NCBI GenBank assembly: GCA_029881215.1
Contig: JAOUNA010000009.1
Location: forward strand, 1 to 38,940
Length of the DNA: 38,940 bases
Reading direction: 5' to 3'
From: Myxococcales bacterium
Lineage (GTDB): Bacteria; Myxococcota_A; UBA9160; SMWR01
Every line of letters begins with the position of its first letter. Within the stretch, counting starts at the first letter, position 1. Position numbers and translations under genes: made by a program. The notes under the pieces are model-generated. The model made no database searches, was not told where the DNA came from, and saw only the letters and a program-made list of their open reading frames with translations. Shown one piece after another: positions 3,643 through 38,940 of the stretch.

Positions 3643-4863
3643 ATGAAGAAGGTCATGATCATGGGCGTGGGTGCGCAGGGCAGCACCATCGCCAAGCGGC
3701 TGCAGGAGGAGCCCAAGATCCGGGAGATCATCTGCGCCGACTACGACCCGCGCGCGGCCCAGGATCTCGAAAAGTCCCTCTCCAAGGCGAAGGCCGTGCA
3801 GGTGGACGCGCGCAAGGTGGCGGACGTCGTCAAGGCGGCGAAGGGCGCAGAGTTGATCGTCAACGGGCTGCCGCCGGACTTCAACATGAGCGTGATGGAC
3901 GCGGCGCTCGAGGTGAACGCCTGCTACCAGGATCTCGCATCGGGCCCCCTGGGAGACGGGAACTTCGTCGGCGCGGTGCGCAAGCAGCTCGACCGCGACC
4001 AGCAGTTCAAAGATGCGGGACTTGCCGCGCTCACGAACACCGGCTCGGCGCCGGGGGTGGCCAACATCGTGACGCGGGAAGCGTGTGACAAGTTCGACAG
4101 CGTCGACGCGATCACGATCTACGTGTACGACGGCATCTGGTCGAAGCGCTTCATCCCCTTCTGGTGGTCACCCGACACCGCCTTCGGCGACATGGCCGCC
4201 GAGCCCGTCATCTACGAGAACGGCGCCTTCAAGACCGTGCCCCCCTTCAGCGATCCCGAGTGGGTCGACTTCCGGGGCATCGGCAAGCGCCGCGTCTACG
4301 ACCACGAGCACGAGGAGCCCGTGACGATGGGCCTGCTCGCCGATCGCTACCTGAAGGGCGTGCGCAACGTGCGCTTCCGCTACGGCGGCCCGGCCTGCGA
4401 GCTGGCGCGAGATTTCTACCGCATGGGTCTGCTCTCCTGGCGGGCCGTGGAGGTGGACGGTGTCGAGATCGTGCCGATGCGCCTGATCTCCAAGCTGACC
4501 CCGCCGGCGCCGAAGTACCGGGAGGAGATCCAGCAGGTGCTCGACGAGGGCATGGAGCTGGAGGAGGGCGCTTTCCTGGTCCGCGTGGACGGCGTGAAGG
4601 ACGGCGGCGCGCTGCGCGTCGACAGCTACGTGAATGCGCCGGACCTGACCGAGTCGTTCCGGAAGGCGGGCATCACCCACGAGTCGTACTACACCGGGCA
4701 GAGCGCCTTCCTGTTCACGAAGATGTTCGTCAACGGCAAGATCGATCTCACGGGCGTCTTTCCGCCGGAAGCGTTCGAGGCGGGGGCGCGGCGCTACTAC
4801 CTGGAGGAGGCGGCCAAGCTCGACATCACCGTGGACGAGGTGGTGCAGCGGCGCCTGTACTAG
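3643..4863 (+). CDS. Saccharopine dehydrogenase-family NAD(P) oxidoreductase
   Basis: Soluble cytoplasmic oxidoreductase of 406 residues. The N-terminal Rossmann fold has the GxGxxG nucleotide motif at 8-13 (GVGAQG), followed by a strand ending ICADYD and a helix, as in the Sacchrp_dh_NADP family. The C-terminal catalytic part lacks any motif that lets me name a substrate. The family includes saccharopine dehydrogenase/reductase, homospermidine-type and carboxynorspermidine-type enzymes, so divergence from a polyamine importer is suggestive. The start at 3643 is chosen for the GAGGGAG site 6 bases upstream; an in-frame ATG at 3628 overlaps that site. Function beyond the family level is not claimed. 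Confidence 0.85.
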   Translation: MKKVMIMGVGAQGSTIAKRLQEEPKIREIICADYDPRAAQDLEKSLSKAKAVQVDARKVADVVKAAKGAELIVNGLPPDFNMSVMDAALEVNACYQDLASGPLGDGNFVGAVRKQLDRDQQFKDAGLAALTNTGSAPGVANIVTREACDKFDSVDAITIYVYDGIWSKRFIPFWWSPDTAFGDMAAEPVIYENGAFKTVPPFSDPEWVDFRGIGKRRVYDHEHEEPVTMGLLADRYLKGVRNVRFRYGGPACELARDFYRMGLLSWRAVEVDGVEIVPMRLISKLTPPAPKYREEIQQVLDEGMELEEGAFLVRVDGVKDGGALRVDSYVNAPDLTESFRKAGITHESYYTGQSAFLFTKMFVNGKIDLTGVFPPEAFEAGARRYYLEEAAKLDITVDEVVQRRLY

Positions 4864-29875: not shown

Positions 29876-30781
29876 TCAGAACTCCGCGGCCGAGACCCGG
29901 TGCTCGCCGCTGCGCGTTTGCCTGATGGTGCTGAAGCTGCTGTCGGTGTACTCGTGGCAGGCGCCCGTGCAGTCCTTCAGCTCCGCCACGGTATACAGGA
30001 TGGGCGGCGAATCGACCTTCTTGTGAGCGTCGGGCTTGAAGTCGGTCGCGTGGCACGCGGCGCAATCGGGCGCATAGCCCGGGCTCGGCCACGGAACGCT
30101 GTCGCGGTTCGTGGTGTGGCACGCGGTGCAGTCGAGCGCGCGGCGATGATCGCCGGAGTAGCCGGCGGAGGCGTGGCGGAACGTCGACGGACTCCAGCGT
30201 CTCGTGTCGTGGCAGGCGCCGCAGTCGCTGGTCGTCACGAAGTGCCCGGTGTCGATGCCCGTCGCCGTGACGCCGTCGTGACAGCCCGCGCAGGTCCCCG
30301 TGATGTTCGCGTGGTCGAAGCTCGCCGGCGTCCACGCCAGCGTCGAGTGGCAGGACCCGCAATCCCCGTTGGTCAGGATGTGATCGAGGGGCTTGCCCGT
30401 CGCCTGCATGCCGTCGTGACAAGTGGCGCAGCGGCCTTCGACGCCCGAGTGATCGAATACGGCGCGGCTCCAGATCACCGTGTCGTGGCAGTCATCGCAG
30501 CGATTCGAGCTGGAGACGTGGTCGCGGGTCTTCTCCGTCTGGGCGCGCAGGCCGGAGCCGTCGTGGCAGAGCTCGCAGCGGTCGGGTGTTCCCGCGAACA
30601 GGCCCTCGGCGTGGCACGATTCGCACGGCTCCCTGCGGTGCGAGCCGGTCAGCGGAAAGCGGGTCGTCGAGTGGTCGAACGCCGCGCCGCTCTGCGCCCG
30701 TGCGGGGTCGCTCCAGAGCAGAGAGCCGGCGAGCGCGCAGCACCCCAGCAGGAAACGGATCGAGACGCATCGCGTGTTCAT
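29876..30781 (-). CDS. Multiheme c-type cytochrome, nine CXXCH plus one CXXXCH
   Basis: Exported cytochrome of 301 residues with a signal peptide (about 1-30, ending DPARAQ). I count nine CXXCH haem motifs (CESCH, CELCH, CDDCH, CATCH, CGSCH, CAGCH, CGACH, CTACH, CAACH). A tenth element near the C-terminus, CTGACH, has one extra spacer residue. Units of about 30 residues of the type C..CHD...W....FDH recur, like the cytochrome c7/c3-type families. The C-terminal SGEHRVS segment is a feature I recall from related deltaproteobacterial proteins. The start forms an ATGA overlap with the 21-haem gene, so the two are co-translated. It should carry electrons in the periplasm or at the outer membrane. 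Confidence 0.93.
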   Translation of the reverse strand: MNTRCVSIRFLLGCCALAGSLLWSDPARAQSGAAFDHSTTRFPLTGSHRREPCESCHAEGLFAGTPDRCELCHDGSGLRAQTEKTRDHVSSSNRCDDCHDTVIWSRAVFDHSGVEGRCATCHDGMQATGKPLDHILTNGDCGSCHSTLAWTPASFDHANITGTCAGCHDGVTATGIDTGHFVTTSDCGACHDTRRWSPSTFRHASAGYSGDHRRALDCTACHTTNRDSVPWPSPGYAPDCAACHATDFKPDAHKKVDSPPILYTVAELKDCTGACHEYTDSSFSTIRQTRSGEHRVSAAEF

Positions 30782-32373
30782 CGCATGCTCCTCAGCTCTC
30801 GCCACGACGTATCGACGTGACACTGGCCACAGCTGCGCCCGAAGGAGCCTCGATGCACGTCGTCCTCGGTGTGGCACGTCTCGCAGCGGCGCGACTGCTG
30901 CACCCGGCCGCGCGTCGGCTCGCTGTGGCACGCGCGGCAGGCGAGGCCCTCGTGGGCTCCGTGCAGGGAGAAAGACGTCTGCGTGTCGTGATCGAAGCTC
31001 CAGACGCGCCAGCTGTTCGGCACGTGACAGCGCCCGCAATCGTCGCCGAGCCGAGTCTCGTGGTGGTCGTCAGTGGCGTGACACGAGGAACAGTTCGGAT
31101 CCGCGTCCGCGAAGCGCTGGCTGCGATGGCAGTCCTCGCACGAGACCAGCGCGTGGAGCCCGAGCAGGGGGAATTTCGTCAGCCCGTGATCGAATGACAC
31201 CTGGTCTGCCCACCCGCGTTCGTCGTGACACCCAGCGCAATCCCTGCCTTCCTGGCCCTCGTGCGCGTCGTCTGCTCGGTGACACGAGTAGCAGTTCATC
31301 GAGATTCGTTCTTTTCCGAGGGTTCCCTTGTGACATGCGTCACAACGCACCTCCCCGTGCAGCCCGCGCAGCGGGAAGCGGGTCTTTCGATCGTGTTGGA
31401 AACGGGAGGACTTCCACGACTGGCTGGTGTGGCAGTCGCCGCAGCGCGGCCCGTTGCGCCCGCGGTGGTCGTCGTCGAGGCGGTGACAGGTTCCGCACTC
31501 CAAGGGGAGCTTCTCGTCGAACGCATCCTGGCGGTGGCAGCTCCGGCACGCCAGCTCGCGGTGCGCGCCCGTGAGCGGGAAGCGCGTCTTCGAGCCGTGA
31601 TCGAAGCGCGTCTTCTTCCAGCTGACGGAGTCGTGGCAGTCCCCGCACGCCGCTCCGAGACGCCCCCGGTGGCTGTCGTCGATGCCGTGGCAGCTGGCGC
31701 AGGAGGTGGGCGTCTTCTTGTAGCGCTCGTTCACGTGGCACGCGGCGCACTGCACCTGCGCGTGGGAGCCCTTCAAGGGGAAGGCTGTGGCGGCGTGCTC
31801 GAAACGCGCCCGATTCCAGCTCGTCTCCTGGTGGCAGTCGCCGCAGGCCTCGCCGAGCCCCTGCCTGTGCGGATCGTCGTCGCGGTGGCAACCGATACAG
31901 GCCGAGGCCGCCTCGGAGAAGCGCTGCCCCGCCGCATGGCAGCGCTCACAGGTGAGGCTCGCGTGGGCGCCGCGCAGGCTGAAGTCGGTCTTGCGGTGGT
32001 CGAACGCATCGCGGTCGAGGCCGAGGACATCGGCCTCGCGCCCCTTGTGCTCGGTGTGGCAGTCGCGGCAGGCGACTCGATCCACATCCGTCAGCCGACC
32101 GTGATAGCCCCGTTGGCTCTCGAGATCCGCGCCGACTGCCTTGTGACAGTCCACGCACAGCTCGCGCTGCGCCTCGGCGCGCAGCGCCTGGTGGCAGCTG
32201 GCGCAATCGGCTTCGATCTTCGCGTGCCCGGCGATCACGGGGCCGGGCATCACCAGCGTCTTCCAGTCGCCGGCGCGCGCCGCGCTGGAGAGCAGCACGA
32301 CCGCGAGCGACAGGATTCGCCACCCCGCGCGGCGCAGCGACCGGCTTCGCGACCTGTGCGTGACACGGGACAT
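30778..32373 (-). CDS. Large modular 21-heme c-type cytochrome
   Basis: Exported cytochrome of 531 residues with a signal peptide (about 14-35, ending AARAGDW). I count 21 CXXCH motifs, one per 25 residues. The first three are in an N-terminal c3-like part. The other eighteen fall in six modules of about 60-66 residues, each with three haems and the frame FPLxGxH, C..CH, C..CH, DDxHxG, C..CH, W. Many extra His residues can serve as second axial ligands. Such strings form haem nanowires in known families. The gene begins next to the stop of the membrane cytochrome b gene (no gap) and its end overlaps the smaller cytochrome by 4 bases. No lipobox, so location outside the inner membrane is certain but the exact site is not. 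Confidence 0.95.
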   Translation of the reverse strand: MSRVTHRSRSRSLRRAGWRILSLAVVLLSSAARAGDWKTLVMPGPVIAGHAKIEADCASCHQALRAEAQRELCVDCHKAVGADLESQRGYHGRLTDVDRVACRDCHTEHKGREADVLGLDRDAFDHRKTDFSLRGAHASLTCERCHAAGQRFSEAASACIGCHRDDDPHRQGLGEACGDCHQETSWNRARFEHAATAFPLKGSHAQVQCAACHVNERYKKTPTSCASCHGIDDSHRGRLGAACGDCHDSVSWKKTRFDHGSKTRFPLTGAHRELACRSCHRQDAFDEKLPLECGTCHRLDDDHRGRNGPRCGDCHTSQSWKSSRFQHDRKTRFPLRGLHGEVRCDACHKGTLGKERISMNCYSCHRADDAHEGQEGRDCAGCHDERGWADQVSFDHGLTKFPLLGLHALVSCEDCHRSQRFADADPNCSSCHATDDHHETRLGDDCGRCHVPNSWRVWSFDHDTQTSFSLHGAHEGLACRACHSEPTRGRVQQSRRCETCHTEDDVHRGSFGRSCGQCHVDTSWRELRSMR

Positions 32374-33348
32374 TCAGTACACGTGCACCGCAAGCACGTG
32401 CACCGCGGCCGTGGCGAAGAGCAGGACGCAGAGCGGCAGGTGGAGCACGTGCCAGATGGCGAAGGCGCGTTCGTAGCCCGAGAAGCGCGCGACGCGCCGG
32501 ACGGCGGCGCCGTACTGTTCGAGTGCGCGCCGGGCGGCCCGCGGATGCAGTCCGAGCCGATCGGCACCCCGGCGCTGGGCGGTCAGGAGCGGACGCACGC
32601 TGCGCCACGCCCGGCGCACGGCGGCGCGTTCGATCCCTCCGGCGCGGAGAAAGCGCCAGGCGCCCTGCACGCGGCCGCTGGACGGTGTGAGCAGCCGGGA
32701 CTCGAGCTCGCGCAGGGTGCGGATGAGCTCCGGCGAGTGCTGCGCGAGGGCGCCGAGGGCGCCACGTCCATCCTGTGCGGCGGCGCGGATCTCGGCGAGC
32801 GTGGCGCGTCGCCCGTGGTACTCGTGGTGGATCCGGGTGTAGATGAAGCGCCCCGCGATGCCGCTGCCCGCCACGAGCAGCATGCTGACCAGTGCAACCG
32901 TCGAGTTGCGCGATCCGAGCTGGAAGTTCGCGTGCAGCAGGATGGCGGTGGGCCCGAGCAGGCCGAGCATCATGTGCACGAGAAACCAGCCGCGCAGGCT
33001 GCCTAGATTGCGCAGCGCCCGAATCCGCTTGCGCAGCGAGTAGAGCAGAAGAAGCGCCATCATGGCGAGGCCGGCGATGCCGAGTGCGTAGCCGACCCCC
33101 GACCTGGCCACGATCCAGTACTCGTCGCGCGCGAGCCAACCCGTCCAGAGCAGCAGCGCGCAGGCGATCCCCGTGCCGGCGAGGCTGAGCGCGAGCGCGG
33201 ACGCGCGCTGGCCCGGCGCGCGCGCGGGACGGGCGGGCGGCGCGACGGGCCCGTGCTGGCCGCGCGCGCTGCGCAGGGGCGGGGTGGATCGCGCCGCGGC
33301 TGCAGGCGTCGTTGCAGTCGTTGCGCGGGAGGCTTCGTTGCGCGGCAT
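32374..33348 (-). CDS. Ferric-reductase-like di-heme b membrane protein
   Basis: Integral inner-membrane protein of 324 residues. It has a Pro/Ala/Arg-rich soluble N-terminus, four hydrophobic helices, a polar loop of about 100 residues and a last helix. Two helices each carry His-X13-His: one in LVHMMLGLLGPTAILLH, one in LHLPLCVLLFATAAVH. This is the spacing that holds two stacked b haems in ferric-reductase/NOX and cytochrome b proteins. It has no FAD/NAD domain, so it probably takes electrons from quinol or from a partner. First gene of the cytochrome operon. The ATG at 33348 is chosen; an in-frame GTG at 33414 is also possible. No clear ribosome site for either. Confidence 0.8.
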   Translation of the reverse strand: MPRNEASRATTATTPAAAARSTPPLRSARGQHGPVAPPARPARAPGQRASALALSLAGTGIACALLLWTGWLARDEYWIVARSGVGYALGIAGLAMMALLLLYSLRKRIRALRNLGSLRGWFLVHMMLGLLGPTAILLHANFQLGSRNSTVALVSMLLVAGSGIAGRFIYTRIHHEYHGRRATLAEIRAAAQDGRGALGALAQHSPELIRTLRELESRLLTPSSGRVQGAWRFLRAGGIERAAVRRAWRSVRPLLTAQRRGADRLGLHPRAARRALEQYGAAVRRVARFSGYERAFAIWHVLHLPLCVLLFATAAVHVLAVHVY

Positions 33349-33430
33349 CTGAAACCCGGGGTGAGGGGCGACCCTTCGCTTCGATCGTCCGGAGCGGAAC
33401 TGCACATCGGACACGCCGTGCCCGCAGGAT

Positions 33431-33446
33431 CGTGACGAAGATCACG
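33431..33446. promoter_or_regulatory. CRP/FNR-superfamily-like operator between the two redox operons
   Basis: CGTGA-N6-TCACG is a perfect 5-bp dyad with the spacing of the CRP-family consensus TGTGA-N6-TCACA. It lies 83 bases upstream of the cytochrome b start and 131 upstream of the barrel gene start, in a 228-base divergent gap. Inverted repeats TCGGACA/TGTCCGA (33407-33413, 33463-33469) share nearly the same centre. A regulator of the CRP/FNR class, which often responds to oxygen, NO or energy state, is a plausible binder. No promoter elements could be fixed. Confidence 0.5.
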
Positions 33447-33576
33447 CGTTGGGCGGTTCCGCTGTCCGAAATTGCCCCGGGCGCGGCTCGGACGCGACGG
33501 GACGCGCACCCGACGGGTAACAGGGCATGTGGCGAAATCCGGTGTCTCGATGCTGCTTGCGGCACAGGAGCGTCGC

Positions 33577-35628
33577 GTGAGCGGCGGCCGGATGGGCTGC
33601 GCCGCGATCCTGGTTGCATGCGGGCTGCTCGTGTGCAGCGCGGCGGCGCGTGCGCAGCATGCGGCGACGCGCCTGCTCTCCTCGCTGTCCGTGCACGAGA
33701 GGCGCGGCCGGGTCGAGGTTCAGATCCACCTGGGTGTGCCGGTGCGCTACCTGGGGCACACGCCCACCGCGCAGAGCGAGCGTTTCGTGCTCGAGATCGC
33801 TCCCCTCGCGGCGGATTCCGCGGGCGTCCCGGAGATCGATACCCGCGGTGTCCTCACGCTGTCCAACGCGGGGAGCCTTCCCCTCGACGCAGTGCGCGCG
33901 GACGGCCCGGCGGCGGCGCCTCGCCTCGAGATCCGCTTCTCCCGTCCGGTCGTTGTCGAGATCGGCCAGGCCGACGATCCGCGCAGCATCGTGGTGTCGA
34001 TCGATGCCGACTCGCTGCAGGGGCGCGACGCCGCGCGCGGCGAGCGCCTGCTGCGCGAGGCCCAGGCCGCCTTGACCGCGCAGGAGATCGACCGCGCCAT
34101 CCTGCTGTGTACCTCGGCGCTGGCGCTGGAGGAAGGCCCCCACACGCCTCGGGCGCTGGAGCTGCTGGGCGTTGCGCGCGAGCGGAAGGGTCAGTTCGCG
34201 CAGGCGATCGCGCAGTACCGAACCTATCTGGAGCGCTATCCCGAGGGCGAGGACAGCGAACGCGTGCGGCAGCGCATGCAGACGCTGATCAGCGCGAGAG
34301 ATGCTCCCGCGAGGCCGCTGCGCCGCGCGGAGCGACCCGCGCGCGCGACCGATTACGACATCTTCGGCAGCGTCGCCAGCTACTACACGCGCGCCGGTCA
34401 GATCGGCGGAGACTTCGGCGGTCGACTGCTCGACTCGTCCCAGCTGGCCGACGTGTACCTGTCGGGCCGGCTCCGCACGCCTTCGCTCGAGCTGCGATCG
34501 CGCGTCGCGGGAAACTACCGCTTCGACTACCGCGACCAATCCACCGCCGACGATGCGCGCATTCGCGATCTGAGCGTGGAGTTGATCCAGCGCAACGGGC
34601 CCCTGCGCATGACGCTCGGGCGGCAGTCGCGCAACCGGGGCGGCGTGCTCGGGCGCTTCGACGGGCTCGCTCTCAGCTACGCGCTGAGCGACTCCGTCGA
34701 GCTCGGCGCGGTCTCCGGCTTTCCGCTCGACACGGGCTTCTCGAACGCCATCGACACCGACGTCGTGCTCGGCGGCCTGCGTCTCGGCCTGCGCGGGCCC
34801 GACGAGCGCGTGAGCGGAGAGCTGTACGGCATCTACCAGGACGGGCCCGCATCGACCGATCGCGCGGCGCTCGGCGGAGAGCTGCGCTACCGGGGCGACT
34901 GGGGTGTGGCGGGCGGATTCGTCGATTACGACGTCTACTTCGCGAGCCTCAATCGCATGTTCCTGGTCGGCAACTGGAACGCGACGCCCGCACTCGATCT
35001 GAACGCGCTCGTGCAGTACGGGAACGCGCCCTTCCTCACCTCGCGCAGCGCCCTCATCGGCTCGGGGGTGACGTCGCTCGACGATCTGCCCGGGAATCCC
35101 GACGCCGCTGCGGTTCGGGATCTCGCGCTCGACCGGACCGGCAAAGCCACCAATTTTGCCATCGGAGGCAGCTATCGCTTCCTGGATGTGTACCGGTTCA
35201 CGCTCGATCTCAACGCCGGTCGCTTCTCGGGTACGCGCGCCCTGAACGAACAGGACGCGACGGGATTCGAGTTCTCGTACCTCGCTCAGGTATCGCGCGA
35301 CGCGCTATTCCTGAGCCGGGATTCGCACACGCTGGGCGTGCGGGCTTTCGACGGCGAGAGCGCGCGCAGCGCCGGCGTGTACTGGCTCGGACGCCTGCCG
35401 CTCTCGGATCGGCTGTACGTGAATCCGCGCCTGCTGGCAGAGTTCCGCGATGCGGCGGCGGGAGCCAATCAGTGGCTGCTGACCCCCGCGCTGCGTGTCG
35501 AGTACCGCCTCGATCAGCTGATCTTCGACCTGGAGGGTCGCTACGAGGTGCGCCTGCTGTCGACGCCACGGGTTTCCGACACGGGATCGTTCTACAGCAT
35601 CGACCTGGGGCTTCGCTATGAGTTCTGA
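33577..35628 (+). CDS. Outer-membrane beta-barrel with AMIN-like and TPR-like N-terminal parts
   Basis: Exported protein of 683 residues. Signal peptide at about 5-27 (ending AARAQ). A beta-rich segment (about 30-145) resembles AMIN-type domains. A TPR-like helical stretch follows (about 150-235, for example ALELLGVARERKGQFAQAIAQY). From about 255 to the end it has alternating strands and short turns, closing with the aromatic LGLRYEF expected for barrel insertion. A porin or conduit sheath is likely. The GTG at 33577 is set by AGGAG 6 bases upstream; ATG at 33550 is in frame. It diverges from the cytochromes and its end overlaps the flavoprotein gene by 11 bases. I know no exact family name. 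Confidence 0.8.
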   Translation: MSGGRMGCAAILVACGLLVCSAAARAQHAATRLLSSLSVHERRGRVEVQIHLGVPVRYLGHTPTAQSERFVLEIAPLAADSAGVPEIDTRGVLTLSNAGSLPLDAVRADGPAAAPRLEIRFSRPVVVEIGQADDPRSIVVSIDADSLQGRDAARGERLLREAQAALTAQEIDRAILLCTSALALEEGPHTPRALELLGVARERKGQFAQAIAQYRTYLERYPEGEDSERVRQRMQTLISARDAPARPLRRAERPARATDYDIFGSVASYYTRAGQIGGDFGGRLLDSSQLADVYLSGRLRTPSLELRSRVAGNYRFDYRDQSTADDARIRDLSVELIQRNGPLRMTLGRQSRNRGGVLGRFDGLALSYALSDSVELGAVSGFPLDTGFSNAIDTDVVLGGLRLGLRGPDERVSGELYGIYQDGPASTDRAALGGELRYRGDWGVAGGFVDYDVYFASLNRMFLVGNWNATPALDLNALVQYGNAPFLTSRSALIGSGVTSLDDLPGNPDAAAVRDLALDRTGKATNFAIGGSYRFLDVYRFTLDLNAGRFSGTRALNEQDATGFEFSYLAQVSRDALFLSRDSHTLGVRAFDGESARSAGVYWLGRLPLSDRLYVNPRLLAEFRDAAAGANQWLLTPALRVEYRLDQLIFDLEGRYEVRLLSTPRVSDTGSFYSIDLGLRYEF

Positions 35629-36955
35629 CGCAGTGTTCACGGGTCTGGTCTACGTCGCACCGATGCTGGCGCTGTGCGTCCTGTACCTGTGGCGCAACGA
35701 GGCGCGCACGCAGAAGAACCTCGCGACGCTGAGCCGGGCGCAGCGCGAGGGGCTGACGGAGCCGCCCTCGCTGCATCCCCAGATCGACCCCAACCGCTGC
35801 CTCGGCTGCGCGACGTGCGTGGATGCCTGCCCCGAGCACGACGTGCTGGGACTCGTTCACGGCAAGGCGCAGATCCTGGTCGCCGCCAACTGCGTCGGTC
35901 ACGGGGCCTGCAAGGATGCCTGCCCGTTCGATGCGATCAGCCTCGTGATCGGAACCGAGCGCCGCGGCGTCGAGATTCCACGGCTCGATGCGAAGTTCGA
36001 GACGAATCTCCCCGGCCTCTTCGTCGCCGGAGAGCTCGGCGGGATGGGACTCATTCGCAACGCGATCACCCAGGGCAGCCAGGTGATCGAATCGGTGTGC
36101 CGGCGCGGAGGCTCCTCGGGCCGCTTCGACTACGACGTGATCATCGTGGGCGCCGGGCCCGCCGGCTTCGCCGCATCGCTCTCCGCGCGCGAGCGCGGAC
36201 TTCGCGCGCTGACCCTCGAGCAGGAGCAGCTGGGCGGAGCGGTGGCGCACTATCCCCGGCGCAAGCTCGTGCTCACGGCCCCCGTCGTGCTGCCCAGCGT
36301 GGGTCGCATCGATCTGCGCGAGACCACCAAGGAGGCGCTGCTCGCGCTCTGGATGCGGGTCGAGGCCGACGTGGGTCTCGGCATCCACTACCGCGAGCGG
36401 GTGGAGCACATCGAACGCACCGGCGGCGGCTTCCGCGTGACGACGCAGCGCGCCGCCTACACGGCGCGCTCCGTGGTGCTCGCCATCGGCCGGCGCGGCA
36501 CGCCGCGCAAGCTCGAGGTCCCGGGAGAGGAGCGCAGCAAGGTCGTCTACCGGCTCAGCGACGCCGCACAGTATCGGGGTCTGCACACACTCGTGGTCGG
36601 TGGTGGCGACAGCGCGATCGAGGCCGCCTGCAGCCTGGCCGAGGAGCCCGGCACCACCGTCACCTTGTCGTATCGCGGCGCGGCGTTCAGCCGCGCCAAG
36701 CCGCGCAATCGCGAGCTCGTGAGCCAGGCCGCGGCGGCCGGGCGCCTCCAGGTGTGGCTCGCCTCCCAGGTGCGGGAGATCGCCGAGTCGAGTGCGCACA
36801 TCGAGATCGCCGACAATCTGAAGGAGATTCCGAACCAGGCGGTCTTCGTGTGCGCGGGCGGCGTGCTGCCGACGAGCTTCCTGCAGGCCATCGGGGTCGA
36901 GACGGAGACGCTCTACGGCCGGCCGCCCCGAGCGGCGGGGGGGAGCCCGAGATGA
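35618..36955 (+). CDS. Membrane-anchored 4Fe-4S/FAD NAD(P)-type oxidoreductase
   Basis: Protein of 445 residues. An N-terminal helix (about 6-26) anchors it in the inner membrane with the rest in the cytoplasm. A two-cluster ferredoxin domain follows (about 56-110): CLGCATCVDACP is canonical, while CVGHGACKDACP has His in place of the second Cys. A thioredoxin-reductase-like flavin domain is next: GAGPAG (FAD) near 178 and GGGDSA (NAD(P)) near 329. The usual CxxC redox pair is absent. I recall the His form (CxxHGAC) in related proteins, so it may be a normal family trait. It could feed electrons from NAD(P)H or ferredoxin to the envelope chain. The overlap with the barrel gene and ATGA with the next gene indicate one operon. 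Confidence 0.88.
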   Translation: MSSDAVFTGLVYVAPMLALCVLYLWRNEARTQKNLATLSRAQREGLTEPPSLHPQIDPNRCLGCATCVDACPEHDVLGLVHGKAQILVAANCVGHGACKDACPFDAISLVIGTERRGVEIPRLDAKFETNLPGLFVAGELGGMGLIRNAITQGSQVIESVCRRGGSSGRFDYDVIIVGAGPAGFAASLSARERGLRALTLEQEQLGGAVAHYPRRKLVLTAPVVLPSVGRIDLRETTKEALLALWMRVEADVGLGIHYRERVEHIERTGGGFRVTTQRAAYTARSVVLAIGRRGTPRKLEVPGEERSKVVYRLSDAAQYRGLHTLVVGGGDSAIEAACSLAEEPGTTVTLSYRGAAFSRAKPRNRELVSQAAAAGRLQVWLASQVREIAESSAHIEIADNLKEIPNQAVFVCAGGVLPTSFLQAIGVETETLYGRPPRAAGGSPR

Positions 36956-38940
36956 GCGGCGCGGCGAGCATCCGGCGCCGCGTCGCGCGCTCCGTCTGCG
37001 CGGTCGTGCTGATCGGTGCGTTCTGCGGCGCCGCGCGCGCCGGCCGCTTCGAAGACGGGCTCGCCGCCGCGAAGCTGCAGCGCTACGCAGAGGCGGCCGC
37101 GATCTGGCAGCCCCTCGCCCGCAAGGGGAACGTCGAGGCCCAGTACAGCCTGGCGGTCCTGTATCGGTCGGGCCGCGGGGTCGCCAAGGACCCGCGACGC
37201 GCCTTGCAGTGGCTCGAGCGGGCGGCGCGCGCCGGTCACGTGAAGGCGCAGTACGACCTGGCGCGGTGGTACGAGCGGGGCTGGGGCGTCAAGGCCGACC
37301 CCGACGCCGCGCGACAATGGTTCGAGCGCGCGGCCGCGCAGGGGCACGAAGCGGCGCGTGCGCATCTCGCCGAGCAGGCCGCCGGCTCGCCGCGCGTGCG
37401 TGCCGTGGGCGGGCGCGATGCGGAAGAGCGGGCGGCTCGCGCCGTGGACGACGGCGCAATCGACGGGTTGCGCGCGGCGCTCGCCGCGGGGGCGGACCCG
37501 AACGCCCGCGATCCGGGCGGGCGCACGCTGCTGATGCGCGCGGCGGCGGGCGATCGACAGGCCGTGCTGAAGGCGCTCCTGGCGGCCGGCGCAGATCCGA
37601 AGCTGCGCGATGCCTATGGCGACACGGCCCTGACGCTCGCAGCCCGCAACGGGCACAGTGCCAGCGTGCGCGCGCTGCTGGCCGGCGGTGCGCCGGTCGA
37701 TGGGCGCGACCGCATCGATCAGACACCCCTGATGATCGCGGCCTACAAGGGTCACGCGGCCACGGTCGCTGTGTTGCTGCGCGCCGGCGCCGATCCGAAC
37801 GCAGCGGACGCGGAGGGACGCCGGGCGCGGAGCCTCGCCGCAGATGCCGGTCACGCGGCGCTCGCCCGAAAGATCCGAGATGCCGGCGGGAAGTCGTCGC
37901 GCGCCGCATCCGCCGCCGCCGCACGCGACGCCAAGTGGCTCGAACAGCGCAGCGCGGCGGCGCGGGCGCAGGAGGTCGGGCCGCCGCTGGTGCTGGCGGC
38001 GGGGCGCGGGCGCGAGCCCATCGTGCGCTCGCTCCTCGCGCAGCGCGCCGACGTCGACGTGCGGGACGAAGAAGGCTTTACGGCGCTCGCGCGAGCGGCC
38101 TGGCACGGGCACGCTGCGATCGTCGGGCTGCTGCTCGATGCCGGGGCCCGCGTGGACCTCGCACCGCGGGATGGGCGCGGTCCGCTCGCACGCGCCGCGC
38201 AGGCCGGGCACGCGGACGTGGTGCGCGTGCTCGCAGCGCGCAACGGCCCGCTCGATGCAGCGGACGCCGATGGCTCGACGCCCCTCATGCTCGCCGCGCA
38301 GGCCGGACACGAGTCCGCGCTCAACGCGCTCCTGAAGGCCGGTGCGGATCGAGAGCGTGTCGATCGGGATGGCATGACGGCGCTCGCCTTCGCGGCTCGC
38401 GCGGGCCACACCGCCAGTGTGCGCGCCCTGCTCGAGGCGGGTGCCGATGCGTCGCGCGCGGATCGCGACGGCAATCCGCCCGCCTGCTGGGCGCAGGCCT
38501 CCGCTCGCCGCGCCGCGCTGGAGGAAATTCTTGGCCGCGGCGTTTCGCCGGAGACGCGCTGCGCCGACGGGGTGACGCTGCTCGGTCGCGCCGCCGCCGC
38601 GGGCGACGCCGACATGGTCGCCGCACTGCTCGAGCGCGGCGCAGAGCCCGACGCGGCGAGTGCGAACGGCAACGCGCCGCTGCTCCTGGCGGCCGACCGC
38701 GGCCACGCGGACGTGGTGCAGCTCCTGCTGGACCGCGGCGCCGTTCCCGATGCGCGCGGCTACCGCGGCAACACCGCACTGCTGCTGGCGTCGCAGCACG
38801 GGCACGCCGACGTAGTGCGACTGCTGCTCGAACGCGGCGCGCGGGCCTCGCTTCGCAATGCCGATCATCGCACGGCGGCCGAGCTGGCGGCGCGCGGGCG
38901 TCACGACGCGGTGACCGCGCTGCTCGACGGAGGGGCGAAG
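36952..38940 (+). CDS. Secreted Sel1/ankyrin-repeat protein (3' end outside window)
   Basis: At least 663 codons; the frame is still open at the window edge. The N-terminus is a basic, hydrophobic signal peptide ending ARAG. Residues about 25-140 carry about two Sel1 repeats (for example AQYSLAVLYRSGRGVAKDP). From about 160 on I count about fifteen ankyrin repeats of 33 residues (TPLMLAAQAGH, VVQLLLDRGA), with a break near 305-335. Such solenoids bind proteins. The location outside the inner membrane is notable, since most ankyrin proteins are cytoplasmic. ATGA overlap with the flavoprotein stop. Codon use looks like the neighbours, so recent transfer is not suggested. Partner unknown. Confidence 0.85.
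   Translation, partial: MSGAASIRRRVARSVCAVVLIGAFCGAARAGRFEDGLAAAKLQRYAEAAAIWQPLARKGNVEAQYSLAVLYRSGRGVAKDPRRALQWLERAARAGHVKAQYDLARWYERGWGVKADPDAARQWFERAAAQGHEAARAHLAEQAAGSPRVRAVGGRDAEERAARAVDDGAIDGLRAALAAGADPNARDPGGRTLLMRAAAGDRQAVLKALLAAGADPKLRDAYGDTALTLAARNGHSASVRALLAGGAPVDGRDRIDQTPLMIAAYKGHAATVAVLLRAGADPNAADAEGRRARSLAADAGHAALARKIRDAGGKSSRAASAAAARDAKWLEQRSAAARAQEVGPPLVLAAGRGREPIVRSLLAQRADVDVRDEEGFTALARAAWHGHAAIVGLLLDAGARVDLAPRDGRGPLARAAQAGHADVVRVLAARNGPLDAADADGSTPLMLAAQAGHESALNALLKAGADRERVDRDGMTALAFAARAGHTASVRALLEAGADASRADRDGNPPACWAQASARRAALEEILGRGVSPETRCADGVTLLGRAAAAGDADMVAALLERGAEPDAASANGNAPLLLAADRGHADVVQLLLDRGAVPDARGYRGNTALLLASQHGHADVVRLLLERGARASLRNADHRTAAELAARGRHDAVTALLDGGAK

Follow-up and report, generated by a model that had tools for sequence, protein, structure and literature searches.

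Direct action of CRP on outer-membrane cytochrome promoters is already known from Shewanella. In S. oneidensis, CRP directly activates omcA and mtrC, whose putative CRP sites are centred at −61.5 and −60.5, respectively (PMC4417206). As described in the passages of that report on these promoters, the genes belong to the Mtr system, the sites are imperfect and lie at separate promoters, with mtrC having only half of the consensus, and both binding and activation were shown by EMSA and deletion (PMC4417206). PCC3 porin-cytochrome clusters are present in many bacteria. The PCC3 passages of PMC5566968 describe an inner-membrane protein (IMP) of ~300 aa with five helices, an SGxxG motif and two W-x3-H-x13-H motifs, an outer-membrane beta-barrel, and periplasmic and extracellular cytochromes with median counts of 21 and 34 CXXCH, in hosts from the Alpha-, Beta- and Gammaproteobacteria. 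In Sideroxydans ES-1, both PCC3 clusters are downregulated in Fe(II)-grown cells, according to the part of PMC8788666 that treats them. Our search of titles and abstract openings in the open literature found no report of CRP control of PCC3.

The window considered here, the whole stretch of 38,940 nucleotides that was analysed, contains a PCC3-like gene set arranged around a divergent promoter region. We predict that positions 33431–33446 of this region are an operator for the CRP-type regulator of the genome, the C129 protein, and we consider this reading likely. As with omcA and mtrC of Shewanella, the CRP-type site is upstream of genes of a putative outer-membrane multihaem conduit and is built from GTGA/TCAC half-sites. 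In contrast to Shewanella, it belongs to a PCC3-like system, has all eight core bases and lies between two divergent operons.

Gene content of the divergent operons

The two divergent operons contain three genes each, packed end to end or overlapping (Table 1). The leftward operon starts with an IMP that resembles the PCC3 IMP, having five hydrophobic segments by hydropathy, two W-x3-H-x13-H motifs and one SGxxG. Residues H125, H139, H303, H317, S162, G163, G166 and W299 are invariant in 21 sequences and W121 is nearly so, and the protein has no match in Pfam or NCBIfam. Judged by haem count, the first cytochrome equals the reported median of PCC3 periplasmic cytochromes, and the second has 9 CXXCH, compared with the extracellular median of 34 given in the PCC3 passages of PMC5566968. 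The first product of the rightward operon has a signal-peptide-like N-terminus by eye, and its model shows a barrel of 22 strands in residues 259–682 (mean pLDDT 84, pTM 0.57). The top eight Foldseek matches are outer-membrane porins, with ushers from rank 9, at low TM-scores of 0.20–0.33 by query and 0.27–0.50 by target among the 50 matches listed; a viral scan with the same protein returned no result. The predicted barrel and its porin-like matches correspond to the outer-membrane beta-barrel of PCC3, with the difference that the barrel gene here is divergent and paired with an FeS/FAD oxidoreductase. Relatives of this oxidoreductase (47–59% identity) are found near an IMP gene in 69 of 80 named loci, and the PCC3 passages of PMC5566968 do not mention a 4Fe-4S/FAD oxidoreductase as a component. 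Unlike the alpha-, beta- and gammaproteobacterial hosts given there, some of the related loci match records labelled Deltaproteobacteria or Myxococcota. Taken as a whole, the gene set resembles a PCC3 porin-cytochrome cluster and probably functions as an electron conduit, as the family suggests.

Table 1 Features of the window around the divergent promoter region
Feature	Position	Strand	Remarks
Multihaem cytochrome c, 9 CXXCH	29876–30781	−	ATG overlaps stop of preceding gene
Multihaem cytochrome c, 21 CXXCH	30778–32373	−	
Inner-membrane protein (IMP), 324 aa	32374–33348	−	predicted start ATG 33348; alternatives GTG 33405, GTG 33414
Divergent intergenic region separating the two operons	33349–33576		228 nt
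Pair AGCGGAAC 33393–33400 / GTTCCGCT 33456–33463	33393–33463		centre 33428; judged chance
Outer pair TCGGACA 33407–33413 / TGTCCGA 33463–33469	33407–33469		centre 33438.0; judged chance
Candidate CRP-type operator CGTGA-N6-TCACG	33431–33446		core GTGACGAAGATCAC 33432–33445
TPR and beta-barrel protein, porin-like	33577–35628	+	predicted start GTG 33577; AGGAG 33566–33570
4Fe-4S/FAD (Pyr_redox) oxidoreductase	35618–36955	+	overlaps barrel gene
Sel1/ankyrin-like repeat protein	36952–38940	+	start overlaps preceding stop; runs off window; repeat type by eye

The CRP-type dyad and its recurrence at related loci

The sequence CGTGACGAAGATCACG forms a dyad centred at 33438.5. The initial annotation had described this dyad as CRP/FNR-like, and both its position and the five sequences quoted in that description are borne out. 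The core matches the CRP palindrome [T]GTGA-N6-TCAC[A] at 8 of 8 bases, with the outer T and A replaced by C and G. The consensus of FNR-type operators is TTGAT-N4-ATCAA, from which the half-sites here depart, with GTGAC on one strand and GTGAT on the opposite one. The CRP half of the original description stands, also at related loci, and the FNR half fits less well.

The dyad sits between the earliest possible start in the IMP frame (GTG 33414) and that in the barrel frame (TTG 33472), and the IMP frame is stopped at 33442–33444, within the dyad itself. Even the earliest start codons of the two flanking genes are downstream of it, and it is outside their coding sequence. It can be translated as V-T-K-I-T and V-I-F-V-T in two open frames, neither of which is that of a flanking gene, and a home-made codon model gives no coding signal at the dyad at a threshold that likewise fails to call the site at 31330, which is coding. 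A sigma-70 scan of 33300–33650 called no promoter, with a shuffle level that is likewise 0.0, so that the scan has no power.

The core is above chance level, because an exact GTGA-N6-TCAC arises in just 0.385% of 20,000 dinucleotide shuffles of the 228-nt region, an estimate about equal to the density of the pattern in the genome itself (0.004 per 228 nt). On a matrix made from orthologue sites, with the window excluded, the site scores 14.5 bits. A search for the IMP in 147 genomes, repeated over 79 genomes of the order and 90 of the class, yielded 20 orthologous class loci besides the window, with 41–52% identity to the window IMP; no orthologue above 52% was found in the genomes searched. 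The counts leave out IMP matches weaker than locus L036, the second copy L187 of genome G041 and the fragment L188 of G009; neither the weaker matches L037–L045 nor the L187 locus had an exact site on scanning. In the 400 nt that precede the matched part, the exact pattern is present in 5 of the 20 class loci (L021, L027, L028, L034 and L035), twice in L034; 2000 rounds of shuffling gave 0.079 loci on average and never more than 3. Among these five loci we are least sure of the site in L021, because by eye it is GC-rich and near a neighbouring gene.

Outside the class set, scanning named genomes gave 441 relatives, of which 80 were retained; removal of nine duplicates of class loci left 71 wider loci. 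The exact pattern lies in the upstream 400 nt of four of these, all from Gammaproteobacteria (L068, L073, L077 and L122); shuffling gives 0.28 loci on average and reached four in none of 1000 rounds. In L082 and L118, likewise from Gammaproteobacteria, a site lies at a greater distance, before a small gene (identified by eye) that precedes the IMP gene. The sites of these two Woeseiaceae loci, at 4482 and 4437, respectively, share a common flank, AACTTAATGTGAC-N5-TCACGGGA.

An unbiased scan of 2560 dyad forms (256 four-base arms with ten spacers) placed GTGA-N6-TCAC at the top of the class set (P 3.6e-8) and of the combined 91 loci, 9 of which carry it where 0.34 would be expected (P 1.2e-10). 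The next form in both rankings was TGTG-N8-CACA, which consists of the outer bases of the CRP consensus. When the 71 wider loci were taken by themselves, GTGA-N6-TCAC ranked eighth (4 loci against 0.25, P 1.4e-4) and the TGTG-N8 form second, behind a GGCT-N7 form, and the forms ahead of GTGA-N6 include ones without CRP meaning. The P values of the shuffles and of the 2560-form scan ignore relatedness and coding bias, and those from empirical backgrounds are milder: 6 sites in 8000 nt of upstream sequence compare with 5 in 68,335 nt from other parts of these loci (P 3.8e-4) and with 10 in 99,742 nt of CRP-family loci (P 7.0e-4), and the 80 named loci, nine of them class duplicates, have 7 sites in 32,000 nt against 9 in 370,191 nt (P 1.2e-4). 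Against empirical background, the recurrence excess is weaker but holds.

These results bear on whether the dyad is a functionless chance palindrome. The DNA is GC-rich, codons can yield GTGA-N6-TCAC, and 15 of the 20 class orthologues lack an exact site, which we count against an operator. The rarity of the pattern in shuffles of its own region, its recurrence at other loci, also relative to empirical backgrounds, and its place ahead of both earliest start codons all argue the other way, making a chance origin very improbable.

Six of the 20 class loci showed a divergent barrel when 1.5 kb on each side was considered. Counting the window, four of the seven loci with such a barrel have an exact site, two have a site with one mismatch (L017 and L033) and one has none (L036). 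The association of site and divergent barrel (4/7 versus 2/14 loci) is not significant (P 0.12). Where the exact site and the divergent barrel occur together, in the window, L027, L028 and L035, the site is between the two operons in all four cases. With guessed starts, its distance is 138, 140, 149 and 98 to the barrel gene and 90, 148, 205 and 106 to the IMP gene, respectively.

Candidate regulators and the likely mode of control

Three cyclic-nucleotide-binding domains were detected in the genome, two of which are in proteins with a CRP-type HTH over cut-off. One of the two, encoded on contig C129 of genome G000, has the recognition helix SRETVTR, which agrees with the R-E-x-x-x-R expected for reading GTGA; the base-contacting residues of E. 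coli CRP are R180, E181 and R185, as given in a table of PMC12531629. An orthologue with at least 55% identity is present in 17 of 21 genomes, the own genome included (in two pieces in G018), and the helix reads RET[VI]TR in 17 of 17 readable copies. C129 also keeps a G-E...R-S cassette, the motif of cyclic-nucleotide binders, and the genome has two matches to class III cyclase. The best PDB sequence matches of C129 are the solved CRP/FNR proteins 3d0s and 3i54, presumably from M. tuberculosis, and 3r6s and 4cyd, which we take to be from a corynebacterium. In 3d0s and 3i54 the recognition helix likewise reads SRETV in the alignment, whereas the ligand contacts of the four structures are only partly kept in C129. 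Two points make cAMP a less certain ligand for C129: its best NCBIfam match, the CRP equivalog, is below cut-off (127.5 versus 266 bits), and in the helix after the ligand domain a Val takes the position of a Thr in its closest relative of solved structure. Sites are found in 6 of 17 genomes with the CRP orthologue versus 0 of 4 without it, a difference that is not significant (Fisher P 0.28).

The second protein, C77, is FNR-like, with N-terminal cysteines and the helix SPETVCR, and it scores best in NCBIfam against models of FixK and FNR, without reaching the cut-off of either. Redox genes would be fitting targets for control of the FNR type, and with the assembly 89% complete a regulator may be missing. 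Another member of the CRP/FNR family, for example C77 giving an oxygen or redox signal, might thus bind the dyad instead of C129. However, C77 lacks the arginine that precedes the glutamate in the CRP recognition helix, only two proteins were found with both a cyclic-nucleotide-binding domain and a CRP-type HTH over cut-off, and the FNR form TTGA-N6-TCAA is present in none of the 71 wider upstream regions of 400 nt, a comparison of little power at 0.66 expected from shuffles. C77 appears a poorer fit to GTGA, the CRP-type reading fits better than the FNR-type one, and we regard binding by a protein other than C129 as very unlikely.

Returning to the preferred reading, we infer that a C129 dimer would bind the GTGA half-sites of 33431–33446, and that one CRP-type site may serve both operons without any nesting. 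Bound there, C129 would regulate, and most likely activate, the leftward operon of the IMP and the 21-haem and 9-haem cytochromes, and would act in the same way on the rightward operon of the porin-like barrel, the FeS/FAD oxidoreductase and the repeat protein. Joint control of this kind would let the parts of one putative trans-envelope electron conduit be made together. We infer the direction of control and cAMP as the putative ligand by analogy with Shewanella.

A CRP-type protein may, on the other hand, bind here and serve one operon only, or repress. The site is single, its distance to the starts varies among the window, L027, L028 and L035, and L021 and L034 have sites with no divergent barrel found within 1.5 kb on each side. 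Against this stand its constant place between the operons at the four class loci with both features and the example of Shewanella, where direct CRP control of outer-membrane cytochromes takes the form of activation. We therefore give control of a single operon, or repression, appreciable weight while favouring joint activation by C129.

The presence of a CRP site ahead of PCC3-like operons suggests control by cAMP-type signalling. A more tentative proposal, which we think rather unlikely, is that PCC3-type conduits are as a rule under CRP control, in the Myxococcota-like class and in some Gammaproteobacteria, in parallel to the Mtr system of Shewanella. If true, conduit building would follow carbon and energy status and not the redox partner directly.

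In 5 of 16 CRP orthologue genes, with the own gene excluded, GTGA-N6-TCAC is found 106–226 bp upstream of the approximate start, and the site in L198 has a core identical to that of the window. Autoregulation of the CRP orthologue was nevertheless dropped, since at least three of the five sites (L190, L196 and L198) are within a long upstream reading frame, which in L196 and L198 encodes D-V-I-x-[VI]-T-K at the site; upstream of the own C129 gene there is no GTGA-N6-TCAC. Genes for CRP paralogues with the helix RES[IV]NK have TGTGAA-N4-TTCACA ~92 bp upstream in L206 (2233) and L216 (1372), with an inner base different from that of the sites at IMP loci. In L013 (26–817 and 1193–2500), the FNR-like gene has as its divergent neighbour a gene that by eye resembles one for a cytochrome c peroxidase.

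Outer inverted repeats and coding look-alikes

The initial annotation had made its main point of the dyad being nested in further inverted repeats with a shared centre. The TCGGACA/TGTCCGA pair does lie around 33438, but its axis and that of the core differ by half a base, one falling between two bases and the other on a base, so that the centre is not shared. The AGCGGAAC/GTTCCGCT pair is also present where it had been placed, centred ten bases from the core. With the core kept, 2000 shuffles give 1.74 ± 1.34 dyads with arms of at least 7, compared with the two observed, and the 420-nt upstream regions of eight related loci, including five with a CRP-type site, contain none of the four outer words. 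Nor is there a separate outer dyad with arms of at least 5 around six CRP-type sites in five orthologues, the site in L028 having merely a longer core arm.

A real multi-arm operator, with the TCGGACA/TGTCCGA arms as a second contact of the same regulator, would draw on the centres being just half a base apart; some dyad with arms of at least 7 falls within 0.5 base of the core centre in 3.65% of shuffles, which is weak evidence because the coincidence was picked afterwards. Set against the chance-level count, the axis mismatch and the lack of both pairs at the related loci, we reject the nested operator and hold a second contact to be extremely unlikely. In our model the outer repeats would have no part in control.

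Genome-wide, GTGA-N6-TCAC is in excess (62 versus 8). The search for further sites suggested alongside the original description thus did find many, but mostly within coding sequence: of 50 sites in the loci inspected, the home-made codon model assigns 14 to intergenic and 36 to coding sequence, in an inspection that covered all but 10 of the 62 genome sites. We therefore do not use the whole-genome count as evidence. Intergenic half-sites more often have the outer T (10/28 versus 2/72 coding, P 3.3e-5) and an inner pyrimidine (24/28 versus 30/72, P 9.8e-5), a contrast that is supportive only, because coding constraint also shapes the coding group. Sequence that encodes V-[IT]-x-[IV]-T or C-D-x-C-H can contain GTGA-N6-TCAC dyads; this partly accounts for the genome-wide count and also accounts for the site at 31330–31343 (GTGACATGCGTCAC). 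That site has a matrix score of 15.9, the highest in the window, and was rejected because its bases encode, in frame, a C-D-A-C-H haem motif. An identical core on contig C362 was likewise rejected, being within a frame that is response-regulator-like by eye. Multihaem genes can thus create false CRP boxes, and CRP-site scans of multihaem-rich genomes should mask coding sequence. In locus L144, two GTGA-N6-TCAC sites at 607 and 659 lie 52 bp apart in sequence that is non-coding by the codon model.
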